Shown here piece by piece: positions 9,246 through 12,777 of a stretch of 38,435 nt of DNA. Every line of letters begins with the position of its first letter. Position 1 is the first letter of the stretch. This DNA is from Sedimentisphaerales bacterium (lineage in GTDB: Bacteria; Planctomycetota; Phycisphaerae; Sedimentisphaerales; Anaerobacaceae): contig JARYLO010000012.1 in the NCBI GenBank assembly GCA_029907605.1, positions 1 through 38,435 of the forward strand, written 5' to 3'. Under the pieces are notes generated by a model that was not told where the DNA came from, searched no databases, and saw only the letters and a program-made list of their open reading frames with translations. The position numbers and the translations under genes were made by a program.

Positions 9246-10916
9246 TCAGTACCTGGCTGCTAGGTCCTTGATCAGGGCCATGGCCATATCTATGTCGACG
9301 ATCTGGGACTGTTTGTCCGATCTGGGCTTGTATTCAAGGCCGCCTGCTGCCAAGGACCTCTTGCTTGCGGTCAGCCGTACAGGCAGGCCTATAAGGTCGC
9401 TATCTGCAAACTTCTGGCCTGCTGGGAGCATCCGGTCATCATAGAGGACATCGATGTTATCTCCCAAGAGCCTCTGGTAGACCTGCTGACAGGACTGGCA
9501 GGTCTGTGGGTCCTCGAGGTTCAGCCCTATCAGGTGCACCAAGAAGGGGGCTATACAGGCTGGCCAGCACAGACCTGCTTGGTCATGGAACTGCTCGGCG
9601 AGGATTCCTATGACCCTGGTCATGTTGAGCGTGCACCTACCTATGAATATGCCTTGCCTGTTGCCGGTCGCATCTACATATGAGAACTCGCCTATCGGTA
9701 CTGACCTGCAGAGGCGGACAAACTCCAGGCCTACTTGGCCTTCCAATCTGCCGTCACACCGAGGACAACCATCGCCTGGCTTGGCAAGCCTTATGTCCTC
9801 AAGCCTTGGCATGGGAAGGTCCCTGCCTAGGTTGACGTTTATCAGGTGGTAATTGGTACGGTTGGCCCCGCATTCGAAGTTGACCCTCCCACTGACATAG
9901 TGATCGGCTATTAGCAGGACCTCCTGCGGCAGCCCTACAGGACCGAGATATCCTATATCGCAACCTGTCAATTGCCTGACCTGGGCAGCGGGCAGCAGTT
10001 GGAGCCTCTTGCAACCCAAGGCCTTCCTTGTCTTGGCCAGGCTCACCTCACAATCGCCCCTGACCATCACTGCAACTGGCCTGCCATCAGCCTCAAATAG
10101 CATGGTCTTTGTAGTCTTCCAGAGGGGGATACCCAGGAATCGGGCGATAGCCTCTGTACTTATCAGGCCTTCGCCAAGCACAGACTCCATTGGCAGTTGT
10201 TGCTGATCCTGAGGATACTGATCCAGACGCGAACAGGCCCACTGTGCATCTGCCTTGTAACCACACCTATCGCATCTGAGCCAGAGGTGGTCGCCGTATT
10301 GGTTTGTGGCAACCAGACTCTGTGAGCACTTGGCTGCAGGACCTGGGTCTGAATCAAAGACCTCGTGCTTTAGCCCGATCCCCGTAAACACATCCGAACA
10401 GGCCTCCAGGATGCCTTGATACGATCGCTCGCTTGCATCTGAGCTTGGATCGAACGTGAAGGCCTCGATTACGTCGAACTCCCTTGGATCCAACAGCCCT
10501 AGGCCAGGCCTGGGCTTATCACTGAAGGATTTGCTCAGACAGAACAGGTACCTGGGCAGGTCCCTATGAGACTGGATAGTGTGGCCAGCTACCGTGCCCA
10601 GGGCCCCAGTGCAATCACCACCTATGGCCAGGCGCTGGTCTTTGAGCAAGATCCCCTGGACCTCCTCGATCGCTTCATCCCAGATGACAGGCCTCAGTAG
10701 AGGTATAGCGACCTCTTCAAAACCCGATTGGGATAGGCGTCTCTTTATCAGGCCGTACAGCTTCTGAAGGCTGCGGGCCAACAATGGCATGTATGCCCAA
10801 AGCCCTCCTTGGATCTGCTCCAACATGCCAGCCCTTACCAACAAGGACTGGCCAGGGGCCTGTATCTGCGCAGGTGCCTGCCTTCGCGTACGGCAGGTCA
10901 ACTGGGATTGCCTCAT
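9246..10916 (-). CDS. Prolyl-tRNA synthetase-like protein: degenerate catalytic site, intact editing domain
   Basis: A 556-residue protein collinear with bacterial ProRS, starting at the ATG (MRQSQL) behind GGAG with an 8-base spacer; that ATG overlaps the purN stop as ATGA. The catalytic core has lost family signatures. The GPTHEE loop is replaced by GGDCTGALG (about 99-107), motif 2 FRDE by FSDK (131-134), RPRFG by RPGLG, the SHEF segment by KCSQS, and motif 3 CYGIGVTR by RCTLNMTR (428-434). The insertion editing domain (about 245-370) keeps WKTTKTMLF, GYLGPVG and NFECGAN, and the C-terminal anticodon-binding domain keeps VLYDDR, AGQKFADSDLIGLP and EYK. Two CxxC pairs (215/218, 384/387) could bind zinc. 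It is probably not an aminoacylating enzyme; it may clear mischarged tRNA-Pro in trans. An automated annotation would call it proS. Confidence 0.85.
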   Translation of the reverse strand: MRQSQLTCRTRRQAPAQIQAPGQSLLVRAGMLEQIQGGLWAYMPLLARSLQKLYGLIKRRLSQSGFEEVAIPLLRPVIWDEAIEEVQGILLKDQRLAIGGDCTGALGTVAGHTIQSHRDLPRYLFCLSKSFSDKPRPGLGLLDPREFDVIEAFTFDPSSDASERSYQGILEACSDVFTGIGLKHEVFDSDPGPAAKCSQSLVATNQYGDHLWLRCDRCGYKADAQWACSRLDQYPQDQQQLPMESVLGEGLISTEAIARFLGIPLWKTTKTMLFEADGRPVAVMVRGDCEVSLAKTRKALGCKRLQLLPAAQVRQLTGCDIGYLGPVGLPQEVLLIADHYVSGRVNFECGANRTNYHLINVNLGRDLPMPRLEDIRLAKPGDGCPRCDGRLEGQVGLEFVRLCRSVPIGEFSYVDATGNRQGIFIGRCTLNMTRVIGILAEQFHDQAGLCWPACIAPFLVHLIGLNLEDPQTCQSCQQVYQRLLGDNIDVLYDDRMLPAGQKFADSDLIGLPVRLTASKRSLAAGGLEYKPRSDKQSQIVDIDMAMALIKDLAARY

Positions 10917-11983
10917 ACAAGGATCTCCACAGGTCTGACCTTGACCCTGTTGCCCTCTACCACAAGCCTCCCTGCTGCAAACAGCTCTATGGCCTCTGGA
11001 TAGGCGATGCACTCCTGCTCAAAGACCCGCCCAGCAAGGGTCTGGGGTGTATCGTCGTCCAGGACCGGGCATGTCCGCTGTATGATGATGGGGCCGCTGT
11101 CGTATTGGTCAGTGCAGAAGTGTACGGTACAGCCGCTGACCTTGCACCCTGCCGCCAGGACGGCCTGATGCACATGGATCCCATACATCCCTTTGCCGCC
11201 AAAGCTCGGCAGCAGTGCAGGATGTATGTTCATCACCTTGTTCTTGAAGACCTCCGGTATCCTCCACAAACATAGCCATCCTGCCTGGACCACCAGGTCC
11301 ACACCGGCCTTTGTGAGCTCCTCAGTGAGCCTTTGGCTAAAGGATTCTATGTCTGGGAAGTCCTTCCTGCGGATGATGCACAACTGCAGTCCAGCTGCCC
11401 TGGCCTTCTCGACCCCAGGTACGTCGCTGCGGGAACTGATGACCAGGCCGATCCTTGCGTTGAGTTCGCCTTGTTTGATCCTCTCAAGGAGGTTCATCAT
11501 GGTCCGGCCAGATCCGCTGATCAATACACCTAGGCAAATGGGGGGCCTGTTGGATGAGGTAGCCAGGCCATCTACATCCCTGCCAGCGTCTATGGCCTTG
11601 TTGACCAGTTTGTCCGCCTGCTTGTTCTGGGACCTGCGTACGTGTGTGACCTTCCAGCAAGCAAACTCAGCTAGCAAGGACTTGACCTTGTCATATAGCG
11701 GACGGATCCCAGGGCTTCGGACCGCATATTCACCTTGGACCTGCTTGGCCAACAATTGGCTATCGGTCACCAACTCTATGGCATCTGCGCCCAGGCGCCT
11801 TGCCGCCTCCAATGCCTTGATAAAGGCAGTGTATTCTGCAGCATTGTTGGTGGTCTGGCCAAGATAATAGCCCTTTGCAAATCGGATTGCACCTGAGGGA
11901 TCTGCCAATACTACTCCGGCACCGCCAGGACCTGGGTTGCCCCTGCTTCCTCCATCAGTGTATGCCACGATGTCTTGTGGCAA
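10913..11983 (-). CDS. purN: RNase HI - phosphoribosylglycinamide formyltransferase (PurN) fusion
   Basis: One uninterrupted frame of about 356 residues encodes two enzymes. Residues 1-135 form RNase HI with all four catalytic acids: Asp10 (YTDGG), Glu50 (NNAAEY), Asp74 (VTDSQ) and Asp124 (QADKL). After a linker of about 14 residues, residues 149-350 form PurN: GVLISGSGR near 152, Asn252-x-His254 in NIHPALLPSFGGKG, and Asp295 in YDSGPII. PurN transfers a formyl group from 10-formyl-THF to GAR; RNase HI cuts RNA in RNA:DNA hybrids. I chose the TTG at 11983 because AGAGGG lies 7 bases upstream and it falls 19 bases after the previous stop; the frame is open to a TTG at 12025. Its stop overlaps the ProRS-like start. 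Confidence 0.9.
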   Translation of the reverse strand: MPQDIVAYTDGGSRGNPGPGGAGVVLADPSGAIRFAKGYYLGQTTNNAAEYTAFIKALEAARRLGADAIELVTDSQLLAKQVQGEYAVRSPGIRPLYDKVKSLLAEFACWKVTHVRRSQNKQADKLVNKAIDAGRDVDGLATSSNRPPICLGVLISGSGRTMMNLLERIKQGELNARIGLVISSRSDVPGVEKARAAGLQLCIIRRKDFPDIESFSQRLTEELTKAGVDLVVQAGWLCLWRIPEVFKNKVMNIHPALLPSFGGKGMYGIHVHQAVLAAGCKVSGCTVHFCTDQYDSGPIIIQRTCPVLDDDTPQTLAGRVFEQECIAYPEAIELFAAGRLVVEGNRVKVRPVEILV

Positions 11984-12002
11984 TGTCTTTCCCTCTGACA
12001 GA

Positions 12003-12740
12003 CTAGGTTGCCTGGGTCTTGCCAAGGACCAGGATCCTTGTGCAATTTGGGCACCTGATGATCTCGTCCTTGGTCATCAGGAGGTTGACCGATTCTGTGG
12101 TGACGCCCATGAAACAGCCCCCGCAACTATAGCTGTGGGACCTGCCCTCCCCTTGTTCTATCTCCACCACCGCCTTGCCATCATAGGTCTCTGCAACACG
12201 CTTGAAGATCTCCAGGACATCTGGCGGTATTGTGCTAGCTACCTCGTCCCACTCGGCCTGGATCTGGTCTACCTCTGCCTGGAGCTTTGCGGCAGCAGCC
12301 TCAGTCTCGGTCCTTATCTGTTCGAGCTGACGCCTGTGCTCCTCTATCTGGGCCTGCAGTGCATCACATTCGGCCTCCTCTGCCTCTATGCCCTTCATCA
12401 ACTCCAGGATCTGGGTCTCCAATTTGGAATTGTCTGCCTTTGTGGTGTTAAGCTGGGTAAGGAGTGTGGCGTACTCCTTGTTTGTCCTGGCAGTGTTCAG
12501 CGCTGCCCTGTACTTGGCGATCTCCTGGTCCCTTGTCTTTAGCTCTAGGTCAAGGCGGTCACACTGCATCTTGGTCCGTTTGATCTCCTCCCTCTTTGCC
12601 TCCAAGGTCGCCTGTTCGGCCTTTATTCTACTCTCATGAATGGCAACAGTCCGCTTGCACCGAACCAGCCTTGCCTTTGCTGCACGTAGCCGATCTTCAA
12701 CCGCCTGTAACCGAACCAGCGCGTTCAGTAATGACCCCAT
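12003..12740 (-). CDS. Coiled-coil protein with C-terminal C4 zinc ribbon (COG1579/DUF164 family)
   Basis: About 245 residues. Nearly all of the first 170 residues are heptad-rich, highly charged coiled coil (Lys/Glu/Gln/Ala). The C-terminus is a zinc ribbon with two pairs, CGGC and CPNC, separated by about 20 residues. This matches the COG1579 family (C4-type zinc ribbon proteins such as chlamydial CdsZ), cytoplasmic proteins of uncertain function with nucleic-acid or envelope links. AGGAG lies 5 bases before the ATG at 12740; an in-frame start at 12761 lacks this. In mycobacteria a member of this family neighbours an RNase HI that is itself fused to a metabolic enzyme, so the linkage seen here recurs. 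It is the first gene of the three-gene minus-strand operon. Confidence 0.88.
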   Translation of the reverse strand: MGSLLNALVRLQAVEDRLRAAKARLVRCKRTVAIHESRIKAEQATLEAKREEIKRTKMQCDRLDLELKTRDQEIAKYRAALNTARTNKEYATLLTQLNTTKADNSKLETQILELMKGIEAEEAECDALQAQIEEHRRQLEQIRTETEAAAAKLQAEVDQIQAEWDEVASTIPPDVLEIFKRVAETYDGKAVVEIEQGEGRSHSYSCGGCFMGVTTESVNLLMTKDEIIRCPNCTRILVLGKTQAT

Positions 12741-12777
12741 CTGAGCTCCTGAGCATGCCAAAGAACCTTATTATTTT

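Follow-up and report, generated by a model that had tools for sequence, protein, structure and literature searches.

The window, by which we mean the whole stretch of 38,435 nucleotides that was analysed, carries on its reverse strand a gene at positions 10913..11983 in which RNase HI is joined to PurN. ORF calling, Pfam, NCBIfam and full-length relatives define it as encoding a protein of 356 aa with a TTG start. In the ORF list, the longest open frame runs from 12025 to 10913 on the same strand and encodes both domains within 370 aa. The TTG codon at 11983 is likely to be the better start of the two, judging from a Shine-Dalgarno-like GAGG that sequence inspection revealed 8 nt 5' of it (11992..11995, reverse strand), from its position 19 nt past the stop codon of the COG1579 gene (12005-12003), and from the start position in homologues. 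The conserved DGG motif is present in 63 homologues, 36 of which have their nearest plausible start nine codons 5' of it, and the codons at this 11983-equivalent position are TTG in 24, GTG in 10 and ATG in 2 cases (TTG or GTG in 34 of the 36 relatives). The same features bear out the start at 11983 that was given, with no strand named, in the original prediction.

The upstream neighbour (12003..12761, reverse strand) encodes a COG1579-type coiled-coil and C4 zinc-ribbon protein, in which Pfam recognised CT398_CC and Zn_ribbon_9. This neighbour had been named correctly from the sequence, and COG1579 adjoins the fusion in nearly all relatives. The fusion gene lies directly 3' of COG1579 in most fused loci, and a convergent gene for ClpC is often found downstream. 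In the window, the downstream neighbour is a ProS-like gene (9246..10916, reverse strand), whose presumed ATG start codon (10916-10914) overlaps the TGA stop codon of the fusion gene (10915-10913) as ATGA. Because of this overlap, we read COG1579, the fusion and ProS as a single transcription unit, and the three genes look as if they are co-transcribed in the window. As regards the ProS-like protein itself, Pfam detected clear editing and anticodon domains, while the class II core scored 19.5 bits against a cut-off of 29.3 bits.

The RNase HI domain of the fusion (RVT_3, archaeal-like type 1) is encoded by positions 11585..11974 of the reverse strand, approximately residues 4-133 when counted from 11983, and was assigned on the basis of Pfam and the PDB relatives 4e19, 3u3g and 3hst. 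An interdomain linker of about 16 residues follows (11537..11584, reverse strand), as delimited by an alignment of fused sequences. The remainder is a PurN (GAR transformylase) domain (10943..11536, reverse strand), assigned on the basis of Pfam, NCBIfam and the PDB relatives 3auf and 2ywr. Within the 370-aa ORF, RVT_3 was matched at residues 23-144 (7e-22), RVT_3 and RNase_H together at residues 17-144, and Formyl_trans_N at residues 167-346 (8e-38). Both RNase HI profiles were passed, with 78.1 bits for PF13456 (cut-off 21.6) and 54.2 bits for PF00075 (cut-off 25.8), and the same is true for the PurN equivalog TIGR00639 of NCBIfam (166.7 versus 150.1 bits). The equivalog cut-offs for two other identities of the formyltransferase half, PurU (formyltetrahydrofolate deformylase) and methionyl-tRNA formyltransferase (fmt), were missed, with 72.5 versus 285.95 bits and 38.6 versus 201.5 bits, respectively. 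The bifunctional RNase H / acid phosphatase model NF005567 was also rejected (114.7 versus 326 bits), being matched only at its positions 5-140 of 378, which leaves its C-terminal histidine phosphatase part unmatched.

To assess the active sites, we used 80 fused sequences, namely the window and 79 distinct relatives (97 ORFs prior to the removal of duplicates). Counted with M1 = 11983, the RNase HI residues D10, E50, D74 and D124 are kept in 78, 79, 80 and 80 of the 80 sequences, and the PurN residues N252, H254 and D295 in all 80; gaps in the alignment account for the three exceptions. These are the catalytic residues that had been listed in the original prediction, and by their conservation both halves look catalytically active. 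Elsewhere in PurN, ORF residue 164 (window positions 11534-11536), located in the first strand, is Cys in the window and Arg in 79 of the 80 sequences. The PurN of genome G020 contains a 25-residue in-frame insertion (L122:5259-5333), which directly follows LLPS, a conserved stretch close to the active site, and is present as a single copy within the G020 genome.

The predicted in-frame fusion is genuine, being encoded by one open frame that passes the profiles for both domains and recurs in many independent genomes. It is clade-specific and widespread in one order, which we took as, or as including, Sedimentisphaerales (class Phycisphaerae). Among the matches listed for the 161 genomes sampled from this order, a near-full-length single match over both domains was found in 119, a partial match crossing the junction in 5, and no match at E 1e-30 in 11. 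In another 5 genomes (L120, L121, L122, L125 and L132) split matches were proven to lie in one open frame. Four genomes with a PurN match within a long frame were left out of the fused count, 3 genomes belong to family f4 but are not fused, 11 represent family f5 with separate matches or one weaker match, and 3 (G678, G287 and G732) were counted neither as fused nor as unfused. The search across the class and the phylum that had been suggested gave no both-domain match among those listed outside the order (samples of 298 and 392 genomes, respectively), all listed both-domain matches coming from the host order; the class, phylum and order lists cover the stronger matches and might pass over a fusion that has diverged strongly. 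Two candidates for fusions outside the order, G238 and G355, whose partial matches seemed to extend into RNase HI, were rejected, as the fetched loci gave no RNase HI match. Likewise, the long PurN frames of G213, G372, G398, G484, G210 and G070 gave no RNase HI match in the PurN frame, and for L124 (G213) Pfam showed PurN only.

In a separate collection of contigs, 73 of 80 loci span both domains. The titles of 71 of these name planctomycetes, with 13 labelled 'Sedimentisphaerales', and those of the other 2 read 'uncultured bacterium'. An assembly error, which had been named as a possible refutation, or a chance frame might be suspected in a draft assembly of 225 contigs, but both can be regarded as virtually excluded, as the same fusion occurs in many independent assemblies, several of which consist of one contig. 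As regards the labelling of the collection, two contigs titled 'Actinomycetes' (L098 and L100) carry a planctomycete-like PurN, and in the PurN tree L098 is separated by a branch length of zero from G065, which belongs to the same class as the window; on these grounds, both titles are probably wrong. The MAGs RBG_13_46_10 and RS_18_13 have two different fusion copies each (L076 and L082, L029 and L061) and are perhaps mixed bins.

The assembly from which the window derives contains one PF13456 and one PF00075 match, both of which represent the fusion gene, as well as two PF00551 matches, namely the fusion and one further Formyl_trans_N match. No PurT was detected above the cut-off in this assembly. 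By these profile searches, the fusion is apparently the sole RNase HI of the assembly and, as the only RNase HI match in an assembly with no PurT above the cut-off, it would probably supply both functions to the cell. With a completeness of 94.6%, the assembly could lack a further gene for RNase HI or PurN. The sole RNase HII candidate (L104, G000:C2:3981-4049) matched profile positions 1-23 only, with a score below the cut-off, and may represent a divergent RNase HII.

The linker had been described as short. This is true for the common case, the gap between the domain matches having a mode of 10 residues (19 of 79 fused sequences), but not in general, as the gap ranges from 2 to 53 residues. 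Rough mean dN/dS values were 0.124 for RNase HI, 0.084 for PurN and 0.484 for the linker, and these are crude estimates from 363 overlapping, close and non-independent pairs with saturated pairs dropped. Judged from these ratios, purifying selection acts on both conserved domains, RNase HI and PurN, and the linker is evolving freely. The linker of genome G032 (L120:5258-5416) even contains an in-frame dispersed repeat, translated as TGILPV...HGQDARATHGRD, with 76 matches in the G032 genome. We found no evidence in support of the view that one of the halves has lost catalysis and is retained purely for scaffolding or oligomerisation. The low dN/dS in both halves, the presence of all catalytic residues in all ungapped sequences, and the apparent lack of another RNase HI in the assembly make this view very improbable.

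An AlphaFold2 model based on 50 aligned rows had a mean pLDDT of 87.3 and a pTM of 0.61, with both domains mostly above 80 and the linker below 50 at residues 141-143. Foldseek matched one half of the model to PurN structures (3auf, with a TM by target of 0.87) and the other to archaeal-type RNase HI (4e19, 0.96). The pTM of 0.61 and the low linker pLDDT are as expected if the orientation of the domains is not fixed, although the low pTM can also stem from the shallow alignment of 50 rows. A linker predicted to be disordered would also suit a scenario in which two separate proteins are present in the cell, produced through proteolysis or through a second translation start within the linker. 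An in-frame linker start with a Shine-Dalgarno-like stretch is present in 13 of the 80 fused sequences. However, in 24 of the 80, including the window, the linker lacks any in-frame ATG, GTG or TTG; in the window this applies to the whole stretch before the first PurN strand, so that the internal start envisaged as a refutation of the original prediction is absent there. We consider separate proteins improbable.

The variable length and sequence of the linker, its dN/dS and the dispersed repeat in G032 point to a flexible tether between independent enzymes. It is likely that the fusion represents two complete, probably independent enzymes on such a tether, which stay joined for the sake of co-expression or through drift. 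We infer the activities of both halves, their independence and the reason for their staying joined from sequence. The N-terminal RNase HI would cleave the RNA strand of RNA-DNA hybrids, such as R-loops and primer remnants, at a D-E-D-D two-metal site. The C-terminal PurN would transfer the formyl group of 10-formyl-tetrahydrofolate to glycinamide ribonucleotide at an N-H-D site, the two enzymes being joined by a tether that is presumably both flexible and replaceable. To our knowledge, the two reactions have no common substrate. The loose and variable connection suggests shared production rather than shared chemistry. The fusion would then be retained for the 1:1 co-expression of two housekeeping activities, which is the simplest benefit, or because it is harmless. 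Its conservation across most of the order suggests some benefit beyond drift.

The same conservation, with both halves retained, could also be taken as a sign of functional coupling, in which the binding of GAR or formyl-folate to PurN would control the activity or the location of RNase HI, or vice versa, and hybrid removal would track the supply of purines and one-carbon units. Both reactions do touch on nucleotide metabolism. The length and sequence of the linker vary freely, however, and even a repeat insertion is tolerated; the predicted structure has no confident fixed orientation; the RNase HI half has been lost in three genomes with PurN still in place; and elsewhere this RNase HI is joined to unrelated partners. 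Such coupling is therefore unlikely, and the proposed connection of nucleotide supply with the removal of R-loops or primers is not borne out by the freely evolving linker, the repeat in G032 and the loss of RNase HI in three f4 genomes.

The reading as independent enzymes, kept for co-expression or by drift, draws on the precedent of the actinobacterial RNase HI-CobC proteins (Rv2228c, MSMEG_4305, SCO2299; NF005567; PMC7466739). Their N-terminus is likewise formed by an RNase HI of this subtype, and the structure 3hst of Rv2228c was matched by the fusion. They also have a C-terminal metabolic enzyme and a variable linker and are confined to one lineage (PMC7466739). In contrast to the present fusion, their partner is a phosphatase instead of PurN, they belong to another phylum, and their linker is usually longer; of the NF005567 model, only the RNase H part was matched. 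The domains of MSMEG_4305 are described as functionally separable in vivo, with a highly variable linker, and the fusion as probably fixed by drift, with coordinated expression as the authors' alternative (PMC7466739). RNase HI activity is essential in M. smegmatis, as stated in another study (PMC4429107).

Compared with stand-alone bacterial PurN (TIGR00639), the fusion passes the cut-off, has the N-H-D site and has 3auf as closest solved structure, but it has an additional N-terminal RNase HI domain. The archaeal-type RNases HI of Halobacterium (4e19) and of metagenomic origin (LC11, 3u3g) are 46% and 41% identical over the domain, with an rmsd of 0.9-1.5, but lack a PurN domain. GAR transformylase is also a domain of a multifunctional protein in the vertebrate trifunctional GART (GARS-AIRS-GART), whose partners are, however, other steps of the same pathway (PMC10912719). 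The RNase HI-PurN fusion is apparently undescribed, as had been surmised: we found no description of it in the titles and abstracts listed from the open-licence PMC literature and, among the NCBIfam release 20.0 matches, no fusion-specific PurN model, whereas the RNase H/acid phosphatase fusion has one. It provides a second clear example, differing in phylum and partner, of a metabolic enzyme that has become permanently attached to a housekeeping RNase HI to which it is unrelated. Whether such fusions spread through coupled functions, or through neutral or mildly useful linkage and co-expression, is a testable question, for which the fused, split and domain-loss versions within one order offer a natural comparison set. 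Annotators should note that a single gene encodes both PurN and RNase HI in the majority of these genomes.

In our view, the fusion would have arisen a single time within the COG1579 operon, by addition of purN to the 3' end of the gene for RNase HI, probably later than the split of one early family of the order. In a tree of COG1579, for which every second fused row was kept, the five f5 rows, which have no PurN fusion, branch first, followed by f4 and finally by the remaining rows (both nodes 98*), with the fused and unfused members of f4 intermixed. This neighbour-gene tree suggests a single origin of the fusion after the f5 split, with the RNase HI part lost once or twice in f4. Two f4 genomes are fused, and three (G039, G044 and G048) have PurN directly after COG1579 with no RNase HI in between. 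Their RNase HI gene is located elsewhere; for the one in G048, Pfam confirmed a classical RNase_H. The trees of PurN and RNase HI neither show nor reject one origin: the PurNs of the order group together with a support of 88 that is not starred, and one fused clade was not rejected by the AU test for PurN (p = 0.389) or for RNase HI (p = 0.557).

Elsewhere in the class, RNase HI of the same type follows COG1579 in 19 of 20 loci, G103 having no COG1579 match; 5 of the class loci with a COG1579-linked RNase HI encode a stand-alone enzyme and the others one with a C-terminal extension. The tendency of RNase HI in this context to fuse had been predicted, and it is stronger than was foreseen: the enzyme is found within one class with PurN, a TIGR04076-type domain, a cupin-like domain or no partner, nearly always beside COG1579. 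The Phycisphaerae proteins with a TIGR04076-type or cupin-like C-terminus thus share with the PurN fusion the COG1579 slot and the type of RNase HI, and differ in the C-terminal domain. The f5 RNases HI (L113-L117, 5 loci) have an extension of about 120 aa, which is weakly cupin-like in L114 and L115 (sub-threshold Cupin_2, E 0.05 and 0.14), and PurN, found in the genomes of 4 of these 5 loci, is encoded elsewhere. TIGR04076 was matched by 4 of ten RNase HI proteins scanned with NCBIfam, three of these ten being from f5: L168 scored above the cut-off (34.0 versus 33 bits), L165, L183 and L184 scored more weakly, and L172 and L177 gave no match.

Sister lineages thus add further C-terminal partners of RNase HI. 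One could imagine that the C-terminus of the COG1579-linked RNase HI is an evolutionary docking slot to which unrelated small-molecule domains (PurN, CobC, TIGR04076, cupin) have repeatedly been added, allowing the enzyme to sense a metabolic signal. We regard this idea as unlikely; were it true, PurN would serve in the host order as the sensor of purine and one-carbon supply. Lastly, in other Phycisphaerae families (L165-L174, L177, L180, L183 and L184) the RNase HI beside COG1579 has a C-terminal domain with the pattern CPAG..LPAGLC..A, the one that matches TIGR04076 in L168 and, more weakly, in L165, L183 and L184.
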